DNA of 64,000 bases from Actinopolymorpha alba DSM 45243. Its GTDB lineage: Bacteria > Actinomycetota > Actinomycetes > Propionibacteriales > Actinopolymorphaceae. The DNA is taken from NCBI RefSeq assembly GCF_000373925.1, contig NZ_KB892768.1, positions 124,001 through 188,000 on the forward strand. The letters are read 5' to 3'. Below, one piece after another: positions 18,115 to 64,000 of the stretch. Both the position numbers and the translations under genes were made by a program. A model generated the notes under the pieces. That model ran no database searches. It was not told the DNA's origin and saw only the letters and a program-made list of their open reading frames with translations. Positions within the stretch are counted from its first letter, which is position 1. Each line of letters opens with the position of its first letter.

Positions 18115-18557
18115 GAATCTAGCCGCGCGGCGCACGCGATCGGGAGGCGGAAGTAGGCGAGTTCCGCGCCGCCCGGCGGAGTTCGCGGGTTGAGCGCCTC
18201 CAGGTCCTTGTTACCGGACAGGCCCAGCCACGTCCCGACGCGCAGCTCGTCCAGGTCGCGGCGCCGGCTCGTACATATGGGGCCGGGTGGCCGAAACCGC
18301 ATGACAGCCGCCCTAGCTGACCCCAAATGATCACGTATACGTGGTCATTGCCTGCCTCACATGGTGTCGGTGCCATGTGAAGCAGGTACGCGCCACGTAT
18401 ACGTGATCATTTGGAGCCGCCGCGCGGCCTGAGGACGCCGCGCTCGAACGCCCTCGCCACGGCCGCCGCCGGTCGCTGACCCACGGCCGCGACTCCGTTA
18501 TCTCAGCGACGTCCGCTACACCAGGGACGTCCGCTACCCCTGCGACTCCGCAACCAA
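18115..18557. other. Intergenic region holding a long composite palindrome
   Basis: No convincing gene lies here; a short leftward open frame at 18105-18326 has no ribosome site and no recognisable domain. The segment holds the 92-bp inverted repeat described separately and the promoter region of the acetyltransferase gene. Confidence 0.5.
18323..18414. repeat. Composite inverted repeat containing the TGATCACGTATACGTGATCA-type palindrome
   Basis: The outer arms 18323-18344 and 18393-18414 are perfect 22-bp complements and contain the core ATGATCACGTATACGTGG. Inner arms 18351-18364 and 18373-18386 pair over 14 bp with one mismatch around an 8-base loop. The left outer arm also lies within a near-perfect 24-bp palindrome (18326-18349, one mismatch). 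The same core recurs as a perfect palindrome at 63111-63134. It looks like a dispersed extragenic palindromic element or a miniature mobile element. Confidence 0.75.
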
Positions 18558-57983: not shown

Positions 57984-58139
57984 CAGCTCAGCGACACCGA
58001 GGCGCCCTGGTCCACGCCCGTTGCGGACCGGGGCGCCTGGTGTTCTGGCTCAGCACCCGGGCGGCCGTGCGTCCTTGGGGGAGCCCCGCGCTACGGTGGG
58101 TCCCCGTATCTACGTTGAGTTATGAGTAAGGGAGTGTCG

Positions 58140-59306
58140 ATGGACACGGCGGAAGCACAGCCGGGTCCGGACGCGAGCTTCACCAGCACGCCATGGGAGC
58201 TCGGCCGGGTCGTCGGACGAGGACCGTCACACGATCCGCTTGCCGCGCTTCGCGCACCGGAAGACCCGCCGTTCGACGTCTTCCTGTCTGGAACGGTCTT
58301 CCTCGACATCATTTTCACCGGCCTTGGCGTACCCCCGTCGAGTGGCACCGAGATCTTCACCGAAGGCATGGGCTGCTCCCCCGGCGGTGTCGCCAACCTC
58401 GCGATCGCGTTGTCCCGGCTCGGTCTGCGCACATCCCTGGCCGCGGCGTTCGGCACCGACGTTTACGGCGACTTCTGCTGGCGGACCCTCGCCGAGCAGG
58501 AAGGCGTCGACCTCTCCATATCCCGGAAGTTCCCGCAGTGGCATTCGCCGGTCACGGTGTCCCTGGCGTACAACTCCGACCGCAGCCTGATCACGCACGC
58601 GCACGAGCCTCCGTTGCCGGCCGACGACATGATCAAGAGTCAGGGCCTGCCAGGCACCCGCGCGTGCTTCGTCGACCTGGCTCCGGAGATGGACGACTGG
58701 ACGCGGCAGGCCGCCGCCAGCGGTGCCCGGATCTTCGCCGACGTGGGCTGGGACCCGACGGAGCAGTGGTCCTCCGAGCTTCTCGACCGGCTGAGCTCCT
58801 GCTATGCGTTCATGCCGAACACGCCGGAGGCGCTCGGCTACACCCGCACCGACACTCCCGAGTCGGCGCTGGCCAAGCTCGGCGACCTGGTGCCGGTCGC
58901 CGTGGTCACCCGTGGCAGCAAGGGTGCGCTCGCGGTCGACAACGAGACGGGTGAGTACGCCGACGTCCCGGCCCTTCCGGTCGAGGCGCTCGACCCGACC
59001 GGCGCGGGTGATGTCTTCGCGGCTGGTTTCGTGAGTTCGACCCTGGCTGGCTGGCCGTTGCTGCACCGGCTGCGGTTCGCCAACCTGTGCGCGGCGCTGT
59101 CGGTCCAGCACTTCGGGGGTTCGCTCTCGGCGCCGGGCTGGGCCGACATCGCCGCCTGGTGGCAGGTCGCCAAGCGGGTACCCGGGCTCGGTGACGTCGC
59201 CAAGGAGTACGCCTTCCTCGACGACCTGGTCCCGCAGTACCCCGTGGGCGCGGTGCGCCGAGCGACAGCGACGATCGGCTTCCAGACCGACGGCATCGAG
59301 CCCTGA
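58140..59306 (+). CDS. PfkB-family carbohydrate kinase
   Basis: 388-residue sugar kinase of the ribokinase family. PfkB motif 1 is GMGCSPGGVANLAIALSRLGLRTSLAAAFG (about 76-105) and motif 2 is DPTGAGDVFAAGFVSS (about 285-300) with the catalytic Asp in TGAGD. The N-terminal 45 residues are an extra extension. The sugar is unknown (ribose, fructose and tagatose kinases share the fold). AAGGGAG lies five bases before the ATG at 58140, which is preferred over 58122. Confidence 0.9.
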   Translation: MDTAEAQPGPDASFTSTPWELGRVVGRGPSHDPLAALRAPEDPPFDVFLSGTVFLDIIFTGLGVPPSSGTEIFTEGMGCSPGGVANLAIALSRLGLRTSLAAAFGTDVYGDFCWRTLAEQEGVDLSISRKFPQWHSPVTVSLAYNSDRSLITHAHEPPLPADDMIKSQGLPGTRACFVDLAPEMDDWTRQAAASGARIFADVGWDPTEQWSSELLDRLSSCYAFMPNTPEALGYTRTDTPESALAKLGDLVPVAVVTRGSKGALAVDNETGEYADVPALPVEALDPTGAGDVFAAGFVSSTLAGWPLLHRLRFANLCAALSVQHFGGSLSAPGWADIAAWWQVAKRVPGLGDVAKEYAFLDDLVPQYPVGAVRRATATIGFQTDGIEP

Positions 59307-59312
59307 CCCGCG

Positions 59313-59349
59313 CTGGCGTCCGCTCCCCAAACGCGGGAGCGGACGCCAG
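59313..59349. terminator. Bidirectional terminator between convergent genes
   Basis: A perfect 15-bp inverted repeat CTGGCGTCCGCTCCC (59313-59327) and its complement (59335-59349), 7-base loop, separates the sugar kinase and the lamin-tail gene stops. Confidence 0.8.
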
Positions 59350-59358
59350 AGTGAGCCG

Positions 59359-59808
59359 TCAGCAGTTCTTGTAACCCGACCCGGTGCTCGTCCAGGCGCA
59401 GGTGTCGGCGGTCGTACCCGAAGCCGTCTTCAGCGTCGCCGTGTCCCCGCTGTTGTTCCAGATGTAGGCCCGCGAACCCCAGTACCTGTGCGTCGAGGAG
59501 TTCGTTCCGGTGCCCGTGTGCAACGTCACCGAGGCACCGCTGTTGAGCGTGAACGTGCCGAAGGTGTAGACGTGCCGTTGTGCGTCCCGAACGGTCCAGC
59601 CCCTGAGGCTGACCGCGCGGGACCCGACGTTCTTGAGGACAACCCACTCGGCGTTGAGACTCGCGTTGCTGCCGGTGTCGCTGCCTGGTGAGTCGTACTG
59701 GATCCGACCGAACTGAATGCTGCTCGCCGCTTCGGCACGGCCACCGAACAGCGTTGTTGCCACACACAGAGCCGCCACGCAGGCAGCAAGGTACGACCTC
59801 ACGGTCAT
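59359..59808 (-). CDS. Secreted lamin-tail-domain protein
   Basis: 149-residue exported protein. The signal peptide is SYLAACVAALCVATTLFGGRAEA (cleavage near 27). The rest is a lamin-tail (Ig-like beta) domain: ASLNAEWVVLKNVGSRAVSLRGWTVRDAQRHVYTFGTFTLNSGASVTLHTG then YWGSRAYIWNNSGDTATLKT. Such domains occur on secreted nucleases and hydrolases; here it stands alone. ATG 59808 follows GGGGGGACACC. Role unknown, perhaps binding. Confidence 0.87.
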   Translation of the reverse strand: MTVRSYLAACVAALCVATTLFGGRAEAASSIQFGRIQYDSPGSDTGSNASLNAEWVVLKNVGSRAVSLRGWTVRDAQRHVYTFGTFTLNSGASVTLHTGTGTNSSTHRYWGSRAYIWNNSGDTATLKTASGTTADTCAWTSTGSGYKNC

Positions 59809-60174
59809 TGGTGTCCCCCCAGTGGACAACGGACGCGCATCACGTCGCGTCAGTCAACAAGAAGCTCACGACCCGCGGATGCGGGACGCGAGCCTCGGCA
59901 GGCACGTCCTGAGATCTGGATCAGGTAGTGCCAACCGGTGCGCCGATACTAGTGGCCGTGATCAACCCGCGCGGGCCTTTCGGCGTAAGAGATCACGCAA
60001 CCGGGGGGCGCGGACAGCGAGCGGCTGTCAGCCCATCCGATGCGTTCACGAGAAGGCGTTCCTGGGGGACGCATCGGGGATGCGGTGACCATCAACACAG
60101 CGGGTGGCCATCAACACAGCAGAGGCCAACGCCGCCGGGCGTTGACCTCTGCGCAGCCGGAATGGTCCCGCGCC
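59809..60174. other. 366-bp intergenic region with a short tandem repeat
   Basis: No gene is evident. CCATCAACACAGC occurs at 60089-60101 and 60108-60120 (19-bp period) immediately before the terminator at 60121. The lamin-tail gene promoter must lie in the left part. Confidence 0.5.
60121..60150 (-). terminator. Terminator of the 51-residue membrane peptide gene
   Basis: AGAGGCCAACGCC (60121-60133) pairs with GGCGTTGACCTCT (60138-60150) over 13 positions with one mismatch and a 4-base loop. It lies 24 bp past the leftward stop at 60175. Confidence 0.65.
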
Positions 60175-60330
60175 TCAGCCTCCGGAGTTGCGCTTGATCC
60201 ATCCCCAGGCGCTGGTGGCCAGGAACAACACCAACGCGATGATCCCGAGCCACAAAAGTCCCTTGAAAAGAAAGCCGATGACAGTGAGCGCCAGCCAGAC
60301 GATGGCGATCACCAACAGGATCTGAAGCAT
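60175..60330 (-). CDS. Small hydrophobic membrane protein (51 residues)
   Basis: An ATG-to-TGA frame encodes MLQILLVIAIVWLALTVIGF, then FKGLLWLGIIALVLFLATSA and a WGWIKRNSGG end: two membrane helices with a short basic tail. The ribosome site AAAGGAGGTGA is a near-perfect Shine-Dalgarno five bases before the ATG, and a terminator follows, so this is a real gene despite its size. Similar short hydrophobic proteins are common in actinobacteria. Function unknown. Confidence 0.85.
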   Translation of the reverse strand: MLQILLVIAIVWLALTVIGFLFKGLLWLGIIALVLFLATSAWGWIKRNSGG

Positions 60331-60461
60331 GGTCACCTCCTTTGACCACTGTACGCCAGGGACCGGTTCGGATCTTTCAGGAAAAGACCTGAGTCGACCC
60401 CTGGATTACCCTGGTGCCGAGCGCCCGGACGCCGGGGCGCAGTGCGCGGGGCAGGCCCAGC

Positions 60462-61271
60462 TCAGAAGGCAGGGAGTACCGCCTGCTGGAACTTTTCCTC
60501 GATGAATGTCCTGACCTGCGGGGAACGCAGGAGTTCGGCCAGCATCGTGACCCGCGAGTCGGCGCGATCACCCGCCCGCACCAGCAGGCCGTCGGCGTAC
60601 GGACTGCCGATCGCGGCCTCCAGGCTGAGCGCGTCGCCACGCGGCCGCAGGCCCGCCTGGGTGGCCGTGCCGGGCGCCATGACCGCGAGGGTTGCCCGGG
60701 GGTAGGCCTTCACAAGGTCCGTGGGCGCCAGCATGGTGACCCTCAGGTGGTGCGGGTTGCTGGTGATGTCCCGCACGGTCGCGGCGTCGCCCGCTCCCTC
60801 CCGCACGCTCAGAACCTTCTCCGCGGCGAGGAGCTGGAGGGCGCGTCCGGACGCACCCGGCGTGTCAGGTAGGACGATCTCGCCGCCGGACGGCAGCTCG
60901 CGAACTGCCTTGACCTTCGCGGAGTACAAACCCAACGGCTCGACGTGGACCGGCGCCAGGAACGCGAGATCGGGACTTGGGCCGTCCTTCGTGCCTGCTC
61001 CTCCGGACGAACGCACGAAGGCGACGTCGAGCGACTTCTCGCGCAGCGCGCTCCGCGCCGCCGCGGGGTCGGCGAACTCCACCACCTCGAGGTTGAGGCG
61101 CACGGCAGGTGCCAAGGACTCCTTGACGTAGGTCAGAATCTGGCGGTCAGGCCCCGGACTCACCCCGACCCGGAGCGTCTCCTCGGTGAGGACGGAGAAG
61201 CTGATGCCGCAGCCAGCACTGACGATTACGTACACGCCAGCCACGAAGGCCACAAGAAGCCTGCGCATCAT
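60462..61271 (-). CDS. MetQ/NlpA-family substrate-binding lipoprotein
   Basis: 269-residue binding protein of a methionine-type ABC importer. The signal is MMRRLLVAFVAGVYVIVSAGC with a lipobox cysteine near 21. The core begins LRVGVSPGPDRQILTYVKESLAP and ends RVTMLAELLRSPQVRTFIEEKF, as in MetQ. It diverges in the ligand region (LDVAFVRSSGGAGTKD), so the ligand may not be methionine. ATG 61271 follows GGAGGGAGC. It is the last gene of a metN-metI-metQ order. Confidence 0.85.
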   Translation of the reverse strand: MMRRLLVAFVAGVYVIVSAGCGISFSVLTEETLRVGVSPGPDRQILTYVKESLAPAVRLNLEVVEFADPAAARSALREKSLDVAFVRSSGGAGTKDGPSPDLAFLAPVHVEPLGLYSAKVKAVRELPSGGEIVLPDTPGASGRALQLLAAEKVLSVREGAGDAATVRDITSNPHHLRVTMLAPTDLVKAYPRATLAVMAPGTATQAGLRPRGDALSLEAAIGSPYADGLLVRAGDRADSRVTMLAELLRSPQVRTFIEEKFQQAVLPAF

Positions 61272-61301
61272 CGAGCTCCCTCCTGGACCTGGCACACCAC
61301 G

Positions 61302-61964
61302 TCAACGTCGGTGATCAAGGCGTCGTGCCAGGCTGTCACCCACCAGCTTCACCCCTTGGGTGAGCACGAGGAAGATGCCGACGATGGCTGCCATGACATC
61401 GGTCTCGAAGTGTTTGTAGCCGTACGTCATGGCCATCGCGCCAAGGCCACTGCCGTCGAGAACCCCCACGATCGCGCTGTAGCCGATGAGGACGACCACC
61501 GTGAGCGCGAGCCCGGAGACCATGCGGGGTAGTCCCTCCCGGAGCAACGCCGTCACGAGCACGTGGTGGGTGCGGGCACCCATCGCGAACGCCGCCTCGA
61601 CGACACCGCGGTCGACGCTGCGCAGGCTCGCCCGGACCCGCTCGGCGAAGAACGGAACGGCCCCCAGCGTGAGGGGTACGACGGCGGCGCCGGTGCCGGT
61701 CGGCGTACCCACGATCGCCCGGGTCAACGGGATCGCGGCGATGAGCAGGACGACGAACGGGATCGACCGGCCTACTGCGACGAGCCCGGCCACCAACTGG
61801 TGGAGTCCGCGTACGGCGACGAGTCCGTCCCTGCCGGTCATCGCGACGAGGACGCCCAGCGGAAGTCCGATCACGACGGTGAAGAGGGTGGCCATGAAGA
61901 CCATGGCGAGCGTGGCGCCGGTCGCCTCCGCCAGTTCCGGCAGCACCGCCTGCCAGTGGCTCAT
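61302..61964 (-). CDS. MetI-type ABC transporter permease
   Basis: 220-residue permease with five to six membrane segments (TLAMVFMATLFTVVIGLPLGVLVAM, SIPFVVLLIAAIPLTRAIVG, GLALTVVVLIGYSAIVGVLD, AAIVGIFLVLTQGVKLVGDSLAR). The coupling EAA-like loop is FAMGARTHHVLVTALLREGLPRM. Its sequence looks intact. It overlaps the ATPase gene by 4 bp (ATGA) and precedes the binding-protein gene by 30 bp. Confidence 0.88.
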   Translation of the reverse strand: MSHWQAVLPELAEATGATLAMVFMATLFTVVIGLPLGVLVAMTGRDGLVAVRGLHQLVAGLVAVGRSIPFVVLLIAAIPLTRAIVGTPTGTGAAVVPLTLGAVPFFAERVRASLRSVDRGVVEAAFAMGARTHHVLVTALLREGLPRMVSGLALTVVVLIGYSAIVGVLDGSGLGAMAMTYGYKHFETDVMAAIVGIFLVLTQGVKLVGDSLARRLDHRR

Positions 61965-62941
61965 ATGTACACCTTCGGTGTGAGGTTGAGGTCAGCGAAC
62001 CTGAGCAAAGCTCGTTGGCAGTCCTCCCCCGGTCCGGTGAGTTCGACACGCAACCGGCCGATGGGCTGACCGCAGATCGTCTCCAGCGATGCGACCACCA
62101 CGCTGATGTCGACGCCGAACGCCCGGCCCGTCTCGGTGAGGACCGGGCCGACGTCGCCGAGGACCGTCAGGTCAGCCAGGAGGCGGCCCGAACTCGGCTC
62201 CGCCTCCGGCAGCATCGGCACCAGCCTGTCCACGAGTTTCGACCCCGGCTGCCGGAGCAGATCGGGCAGGTGTCCGTGGTCGGTAACCCGGCCTTCCTCG
62301 ACCAGGGCCACGCCGTCGCAGGTCGCCTTGATGAGGTCGTAGTCCTGGGTGACCCACACGACGGTGACATCGAACCGCGCGGTCAGCTCACCCACCAGGG
62401 AAAGCATCGCCCTCCGGGCCGCCGGCTCGAGCGTCGCGGTCGACTCCTCGCTCAGCAGGACCCGCGGGCGGGAGACGAAGGCGCGGGCGATCCCGACCCG
62501 ACACCGCTCCTCGTCGGAAAGCTCGGCGGGGTACCTCTCCGCCTGCTCGGCCAGCCCCACCAGGTCGAGCATCTCGTCCACCCGCAGGTCACGGTCGCGC
62601 TGGCGGACGCCGGCGAACTCCAACGGCAGGGCGACGTTGCGGGCGACCGTGCGCTGGGCGAACAGGTCGACCTGCTCCACGAGCATGCCGATGCCGTGTC
62701 GAGCCCGGCGTAACTGCTGGCGTCCCATCGCGGTGAGGTCGTCCCCGGCCACCCACACGGTGCCTTCGTCGGGGCGCACGAGCAGGTTGACGCAGCGCAG
62801 GAGCGCCCTTGCCGTACAAGGATCATCGGCGACGATGCCGAAGGTCTCTCCGGCATCGACGAAGAGGTCCACACCGTCGAGCACCACGACGTCGCCATCG
62901 GGACGCCGATAGCTCTTACGGATGTCGTCCAACTCGATCAC
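61961..62941 (-). CDS. MetN-like ABC subunit with degenerate nucleotide-binding motifs
   Basis: 326-residue homolog of the methionine importer ATPase, full length and with the C-terminal NIL-type ligand domain (about 225-326). Framework segments are MetN-like (LLRCVNLLVRPDEG, RNVALPLEFAGVRQRD, MLDLVGLAEQAERYPAEL), yet nearly all ATPase motifs have changed. Walker A GxSGAGKST is ADDPCTARA (38-46), with no Lys. The Q-loop Gln is E89. The signature LSGGQ is LSDEE (141-145). Walker B VLLCDE is VLLSEE (161-166). The switch His (ITHE) is Gln in VTQD (199). The open frame is uninterrupted. ATP hydrolysis by this protein is doubtful. The start is uncertain: GTG 62941 begins the conserved domain; upstream in-frame TTG 63031 is possible. 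Confidence 0.82.
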   Translation of the reverse strand: MIELDDIRKSYRRPDGDVVVLDGVDLFVDAGETFGIVADDPCTARALLRCVNLLVRPDEGTVWVAGDDLTAMGRQQLRRARHGIGMLVEQVDLFAQRTVARNVALPLEFAGVRQRDRDLRVDEMLDLVGLAEQAERYPAELSDEERCRVGIARAFVSRPRVLLSEESTATLEPAARRAMLSLVGELTARFDVTVVWVTQDYDLIKATCDGVALVEEGRVTDHGHLPDLLRQPGSKLVDRLVPMLPEAEPSSGRLLADLTVLGDVGPVLTETGRAFGVDISVVVASLETICGQPIGRLRVELTGPGEDCQRALLRFADLNLTPKVYI

Positions 62942-63110
62942 AGGGCTTGGCTTTCCAGACGCATGGCTCGTGGAAGGCACCGCGGCCGGGCCCGATAAAG
63001 CCGCCCGGCTCAAGATCACGCGCGTAGTCAACCAGCCCGGTTCGAGTCAGCTCACACCAGGGTGTGAGGTGGGGGCGGGCCCGGACGGGCGAAGCCCGTG
63101 AGGCTCGCTT

Positions 63111-63134
63111 AATGATCACGTATACGTGATCATT
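63111..63134. repeat. Perfect 24-bp palindrome, TGATCACGTATACGTGATCA core
   Basis: The 20-bp core TGATCACGTATACGTGATCA is perfect and extends to 24 bp. Its arms match those in the composite repeat at 18323-18414. It sits in the non-coding region between the ABC operon start and the aldo/keto reductase stop, near two small hairpins (63051-63068 and 63085-63099). Confidence 0.7.
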
Positions 63135-63179
63135 CAGGCTGGGCTGGATCCACACCGTCAGCTGGCGGGACGGGGTTGC

Positions 63180-64000
63180 TCAGTCAGTGGCGGGACGCTG
63201 GCTGGAACGCGCCCAGAGGTTGATGCCGGCCTCGACGGCGTGCCCGTCGATCTCCGCCAGCTCCTCCGCACTGAAGTCGAGCCGGTCGAGCGCCGCGACA
63301 TTGTCCTCGAGTTGCGCCACGCTGCTCGCGCCGATGAGAACGGACGTCATCTGGGGGTGCCGGAGCGCCCAGGCCAGAGCCATCTGGGCCAGGGACTGCC
63401 CACGGCGGGCCGCGATCTGGTTCAGTGCCCGGATGTGCGTGAGGTTCTTCTCGGAGAGCTGGTCGGGCGAGAGCGACTTGCCCTGCGTCGCGCGGGACCC
63501 ATCCGGAACACCCTGGAGGTACTTGTCGGTGAGCATGCCCTGCGCCAGCGGCGAGAACGCGATGCACCCGATGCCCTCGTCCTCGAGGGCATCCAGCAGT
63601 GCCTCCTCGATCCAGCGGTTGAGCATGGAGTAGGACGGCTGGTGGATGAGCAGCGGTGTGCCCATCTCGGCGAGGATGGCCGCGGCCTGCCGGGTGTGCT
63701 CCGGCGAGTAGGACGAGATACCCGCGTACAACGCCTTCCCCTGACGGACAGCCGTGTCGAGGGCACCCATGGTCTCCTCGAGCGGGGTGTCGGGGTCGTA
63801 CCTGTGGGAGTAGAAGATGTCGACGTACTCCAGGCCCATCCGGGAGAGGCTCTGGTCGAGGCTGCTGAGGACGTACTTGCGCGAACCCCACTCGCCGTAG
63901 GGACCGGGCCACATCAGGTAGCCGGCCTTCGTCGAGATGACGAGCTCGTCGCGGTAGGGCGCGAGGTCCTGCCGGAACAGCTTGCCGAAGTTGAGCTCCG
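63180..64000 (-). CDS. Aldo/keto reductase, YghZ/Gpr type (5' end outside window)
   Basis: The frame is open to the window edge; about 273 residues of the C-terminal part are visible, so the N-terminus is missing. ELNFGKLFRQDLAPYRDELVISTKAGYLMWPGPYGEWGSRKY and LDQSLSRMGLEYVDIFYSHRYDPDTPLEETMGALDTAVRQGKALYAGISSYSPEHT read like E. coli YghZ, an L-glyceraldehyde-3-phosphate reductase. The lysine of the AKR tetrad is in STKAGY and the histidine in FYSHR. NADPH-dependent carbonyl reduction is expected. Substrate unconfirmed. Confidence 0.9.
   Translation of the reverse strand, partial: ELNFGKLFRQDLAPYRDELVISTKAGYLMWPGPYGEWGSRKYVLSSLDQSLSRMGLEYVDIFYSHRYDPDTPLEETMGALDTAVRQGKALYAGISSYSPEHTRQAAAILAEMGTPLLIHQPSYSMLNRWIEEALLDALEDEGIGCIAFSPLAQGMLTDKYLQGVPDGSRATQGKSLSPDQLSEKNLTHIRALNQIAARRGQSLAQMALAWALRHPQMTSVLIGASSVAQLEDNVAALDRLDFSAEELAEIDGHAVEAGINLWARSSQRPATD

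Follow-up and report, generated by a model that had tools for sequence, protein, structure and literature searches.

A MetNIQ-type operon in Actinopolymorpha alba with lost nucleotide and ligand motifs: a probable membrane complex retained without ATP use

ABC nucleotide domains are usually read as motors, and degenerate nucleotide sites are known mainly beside a second, working site. Some ABC proteins, among them SUR1 and the BceAB-type sensing transporters, have turned regulator, and these keep at least one ATP site. In heterodimeric or fused ABC exporters, including TM287/288, TmrAB, and CFTR, degeneracy of one nucleotide site is well known, and the second, canonical site remains and powers the cycle (PMC7756269). 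The operon described here lies in a 64,000-nucleotide stretch of DNA (the window) from the ∼8-Mb genome (GC content, ∼68%) of Actinopolymorpha alba DSM 45243, and its closest described counterpart is the E. coli MetNI-Q system (3dhw, 3tui, and 6cvl; TIGR02314, MetI, and MetQ). It shares with that system the gene order N-I-Q, the ATGA overlap between the first two genes, the combination of a nucleotide-binding domain (NBD) with a NIL domain, the predicted fold, and a lipoprotein with a predicted MetQ fold, whereas the Walker A, Q-loop, signature, Walker B Asp, D-loop, H-switch, and MetQ ligand motifs have all been lost from the window operon. If function is retained, the loss of its conserved nucleotide motifs would also liken it to TM287/288, TmrAB, and CFTR; unlike in those exporters, both halves of the site are lost from the operon's only NBD, so that a homodimer would be left with no functional site. 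A partial literature search, using few terms, found no direct precedent for a binding-protein-dependent importer whose sole NBD lacks the whole site and is nevertheless under selection.

Eight genomes of the family were compared at this locus, namely, the window genome, five others of the same genus, G006 from another genus, and G007 from a third genus. The operon genes are all on the minus strand. The MetN-like gene, metN' (61961..62941), starts with GTG and encodes a 326-residue product; an alternative TTG at 63031, which would add 30 residues, may be the true start. A 5' extension in frame with metN' and beginning TTG ACT ACG CG (MTTR...) is common to the window (62942-63031) and G007 (L008 5024-5099) and was not seen in G006; it may mark where translation truly begins or be a leader that the two have in common. 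The best NCBIfam match of the product (MetN') was TIGR02314 with 214 bits, which is below the curated cutoff of 499.7 bits, but since the intact G006 ortholog (351 bits) also falls below it, this cutoff has no discriminating power here. The C-terminal NIL domain (61964..62185) is retained (PF09383, 40 bits; cutoff, 24), and no other NIL-domain protein was found by a search of the window genome. In a PDB search, the MetN chains 3tui and 3dhw were matched, with 3tui being the best, and the AlphaFold model of MetN' (pLDDT, 87) aligned best with 3tui_D (Z, 33.8; root mean square deviation, 1.6 Å over 243 residues), predicting a nucleotide-domain fold close to that of MetN. Family, domain, and structure searches thus concur with the MetN framework and NIL-type C terminus claimed in the initial annotation.

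Every substitution that the initial annotation had claimed for this protein was found in its place when the sequence and codon table were examined. The Walker A equivalent reads ADDPCTARA (62804..62830), where the intact ortholog has GESGAGKST and the consensus is GxSGAGKST; the Q-loop position carries Glu for Gln (62675..62677); the signature equivalent is LSDEE instead of LSGGQ (62507..62521); Walker B ends in EE instead of DE (62444..62449), with the catalytic Glu (E166) kept; and the H-switch position carries Gln for His (62345..62347). In addition, the D-loop reads ATLE for SALD. Only 4 of the 22 motif residues (L141, S142, E166, and L171) are identical to those of the intact ortholog. 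Among columns invariant in intact relatives, MetN' keeps 4/20 in the motifs versus 75/111 elsewhere (Fisher P = 1e-4), and the motif loss is therefore specific and beyond chance. A scripted check found the Walker A Lys and the Walker B DE to be canonical in all 29 class-level MetN relatives and in 80 ABC loci. With the window sequence as the seed, no further motif-less MetN occurred among the best matches listed (29 class-level relatives and 80 genome-contig loci), leaving two such sequences in total, those of the window and G007. MetN' thus lacks the full set of motifs by which a MetN methionine ATPase is recognized (Walker A, Q-loop, LSGGQ, Walker B DE, D-loop, and H-switch), and we infer that both ATP binding and hydrolysis have probably been lost.

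The remainder of the operon follows the MetNIQ-type order, with a PF00528 permease and a PF03180 lipoprotein adjoining metN' and no second NBD gene within the operon. The permease gene metI' (61302..61964; best matches, PF00528 and PRK10782) overlaps metN' by ATGA, an overlap kept in both the window and G007, and its product retains much of the permease sequence together with an EAA-type coupling loop (VVEAAFAMGARTHHVLVTALLREG; 61536..61607), which, at 18/24 residues identical to those of G007, is the best conserved stretch of the permease. The lipoprotein gene metQ' (60462..61295; PF03180, 159 bits) encodes an NlpA/MetQ-family protein that keeps the lipobox Cys and the predicted MetQ fold. 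However, the motifs by which a methionine-binding MetQ is recognized (FQHxPYL, NDxxN, and the Asn of NGN) are missing from MetQ', with VRSSGGA in place of FQHVPYL, DTPGA in place of NDATN, and APG in place of NGN. By our own placement in the family alignment, the Asn lost from NGN would correspond to E. coli MetQ N229, of which the N229A change moves the L-Met affinity from 6.6 nM to 300 μM (PMC12357092). MetQ' is the only NlpA-family protein found in the window genome. Hence, the view that the permease and binding-protein genes are both intact holds for the EAA-type loop of the permease and does not hold for MetQ', which is without FQHVPYL, NDATN, and NGN. Given the motif losses in MetN' and MetQ', the operon has neither its motor site nor its ligand site left, and since the proteins lack the motifs that define MetN and MetQ, methionine importer is the wrong annotation for it.

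The locus could be followed across the family by means of two anchors present in all eight genomes, an aldo/keto reductase gene (AKR; 63180..64000, minus strand, running off the window) and a PfkB-family kinase gene (58122..59306, plus strand). In this slot, G006 carries an intact metN-metI-metQ, and G007 carries open reading frames of metN' and metI' and no metQ. The G007 MetN' motifs read GEPADGPRT (Walker A), P (Q-loop), LTAEE, QE, GGLS, and Q. Among the six sampled genus members, of which the window genome is one, five lack metNIQ between the anchors and show no remnants of it there; the operon has thus been lost from these five genomes without a visible trace, and a MetN'-MetI' complex would be dispensable at the clade level. 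A gene for a lamin-tail-domain protein is still in the slot in four of the five operon-free same-genus genomes (L143-L147), and in G006, the reductase gene is separated from the intact metN by a gene read by eye as encoding a CPBP/CAAX-protease-like membrane protein (L007 4094-4895). Trees pair the window with G007 for MetN (FastTree support, 0.998, or 0.989 with motif blocks masked) and for MetI (0.993), and a rooted marker tree agrees with moderate support. Motif loss is therefore common to two genera. Shared residues (GGQ to xEE and H to Q) were considered as proof of a single loss, but of the 13 core motif sites changed in both sequences, only 3 have the same residue, which is not decisive, and thus losses before and after the window/G007 split were both modeled. 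Intact Walker motifs in relatives had been proposed as a mark of decay, and on this point the outcome is mixed, with G006 intact and G007 equally motif-less.

In the interval between metN' and AKR, a perfect 24-bp palindrome (AATGATCACGTATACGTGATCATT) was observed at 63111-63134, with a further occurrence at 18326-18410. About 198 copies within 3 mismatches are present in the window genome and about 140 copies of a variant in G006, and none were found in the six other family genomes. Nine paired sites that were examined each comprise two copies 62 bp apart around an inner hairpin, seemingly covarying, while single copies often have further complementary flanks. By sequence, the palindrome is a putative REP- or terminator-like repeat family; being one of about 198 genome copies, the copy at 63111 was ruled out as an operator hinting at the function of the operon. 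An Rfam scan of 58000-64000 gave no match, and the sole match of a plasmid search was one distant chromosome-sized record.

The gradation seen at this single locus, running from an intact operon to none, is also consistent with slow loss, and several observations fit an operon that is simply decaying: metQ' is its fastest part (omega of about 0.25 in the window), metQ is deleted in G007, and the operon is missing from five genus members. Under this explanation, transport is gone, the motifs and ligand site are worn, the frames are unbroken by chance, and deletion is next, as in the sister species. We regard it as unlikely, although deserving of serious weight, because codon-level analyses of metN' and metI' run against it.

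A codon model with free branch lengths on six MetN sequences was abandoned, as dS was saturated and branch-wise omega was not identifiable; for this reason, the two flanking genes, AKR and PfkB, were used to fix the times and supplied neutral branch lengths for codon models on the three orthologs. With synonymous sites near saturation, so that the values rest on this calibration, the omega of MetN was 0.073 for the window, 0.122 for G007, and 0.086 for the branch of the intact G006 together with the stem, and that of MetI was about 0.05 (0.049 to 0.050), 0.188, and 0.089, respectively, showing partial relaxation of metI' in G007. Under fixed assumptions, MetQ' had an omega of about 0.25 on the window branch, making it the least constrained part. 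Setting omega to 1 for MetN' costs about 210 to 260 log likelihood (lnL) units. These values are far below 1, rather than near the value of 1 that had been proposed as a sign of a decaying gene.

Since the omega branches start at the window/G007 split, a loss before the split means that the entire motif-less period was constrained. If the loss instead followed the split, the wear of the window motifs requires that 1.75 or more neutral substitutions per codon have accumulated since the loss, and neutral drift of the remaining window MetN' over at least that distance is rejected by 110 lnL units; in the same late-loss test for G007, where constraint is weaker, it is rejected by 17 to 63 units. 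The models thus reject neutral drift of both metN' and metI' in the window lineage; in the case of metN', they do so whether the loss predates or postdates the split from G007. One model variant, combining very recent loss with neutral decay, was only 4 to 6 lnL units worse, but it requires the motif changes to have occurred before the split, which contradicts recent loss. In neutral simulations at 1.5 substitutions per nucleotide, ∼6 stops were expected in metN (P of none, 0.0005), and none are seen; GC3 is 0.87, with a normal codon structure. MetN' and MetI' are therefore under purifying selection. The initial annotation's statement that this is not a simple decaying gene is upheld, by codon-level selection and by a motif-less ortholog in an open frame in another genus rather than by intact neighbors, from which it had been argued.

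Where the constraint sits is equally informative. In ABC importers, the helical segment between the Q-loop and the signature and the EAA loop form the two sides of the NBD-permease contact. The helical (structurally diverse) segment (62525..62665) is the best conserved part of MetN', with 36/47 residues identical to those of G007 and 36/47 to those of G006. Between the window and G007, identity was 36/47 in this segment, 15/40 in the motif blocks (P = 4e-4 against the segment), and 89/166 in the rest of the NBD (P = 0.005), while in an intact pair (G006 and a relative from another family), it was 29/47 in the segment, 37/40 in the motif blocks, and 83/165 in the rest. The pattern is thus inverted, the motif blocks being the best kept in the intact pair and the worst kept between the window and G007. 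By analogy with known importers, the helical segment of MetN' would be expected to dock on the permease, and from their sequences, MetN' and MetI' probably still form a complex.

The location of constraint bears on two further explanations. In one, the complex still imports a substrate, either by using a different ATPase or by means of an atypical nucleotide site; MetN' might, for example, pair with an intact ATPase encoded at a distant locus. Such import could draw on at least 150 ABC domains above the Pfam cutoff in the genome and on the catalytic Glu kept in MetN'. Nevertheless, in such a heterodimer, one composite site would contain the MetN' Walker A, with no Lys and no Gly loop, and the other would contain LSDEE, so that both would be damaged; the MetQ' ligand site is also gone, and no further NIL protein was found in the genome. 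Borrowing would also relax the docking segment of MetN', yet this segment is its best kept part. Because both composite sites are damaged and the docking segment is constrained, the suggestion that the permease borrows another ATPase is not favored, and we consider continued import very improbable. It is equally hard to credit, and in our estimate highly unlikely, that MetN' has shifted to a soluble regulatory role through its NIL domain, without the permease. The C-terminal end of the NIL domain is indeed well conserved between the window and G007 (23/35), but metI' is strongly constrained (omega of about 0.05 in the window), the coupling loop is its best kept part, and the ATGA coupling is kept.

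Taken together, the data make it somewhat probable that a MetN'-MetI' membrane complex has been retained without ATP use, as a nonhydrolyzing scaffold that would most likely be a sensor or gate and not a pump. This pseudo-ATPase scaffold is the simplest fit to the motif loss, the constraint, and the location of the constraint, and the regulatory pseudo-ATPase listed among the options of the initial annotation is a possible reading close to it. An ancestral MetNIQ importer, still present in G006, would have ceased to import methionine in the lineage that comprises the window species and G007; MetN would have lost ATP binding and hydrolysis, and the MetQ methionine pocket would have been lost in the window lineage, with metQ deleted in that of G007. 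Purifying selection would then have preserved MetN' and MetI' as a membrane complex; MetN' would still carry its NIL domain, and its nucleotide domain may serve as a nonhydrolyzing scaffold docked on the coupling loop of the permease. The complex could be a ligand-responsive membrane sensor, a passive gate, or a controller of another protein, with a role as a sensor or gate being the most likely. In using a transporter-like complex to sense or gate, the proposed system would resemble SUR1 and the BceAB-type systems, although these keep at least one ATP site, and no partner channel or kinase has been identified for the window operon. Confidence in a retained function is moderate, considering that five of six genus members are without the operon, that G007 is without metQ, and that metI' of G007 is partly relaxed.

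Automatic naming would label this operon a methionine transporter even though the motor site and the ligand pocket are absent, which is a warning to annotators. Our broader proposal is tentative: in one actinobacterial family, a binding-protein-dependent ABC importer may have turned into a stable ATP-free membrane complex, consisting of a MetN' pseudo-enzyme scaffold with a NIL sensor and selected across at least two genera. If true, an NBD of the homodimeric importer type, devoid of a nucleotide site and evolving as slowly as its intact ortholog, would mean that docking and sensing surfaces are by themselves reason enough for the cassette to be retained. Moreover, this transition is testable, since the locus carries an intact operon in one genome, motif-less versions in two, and no operon in five.
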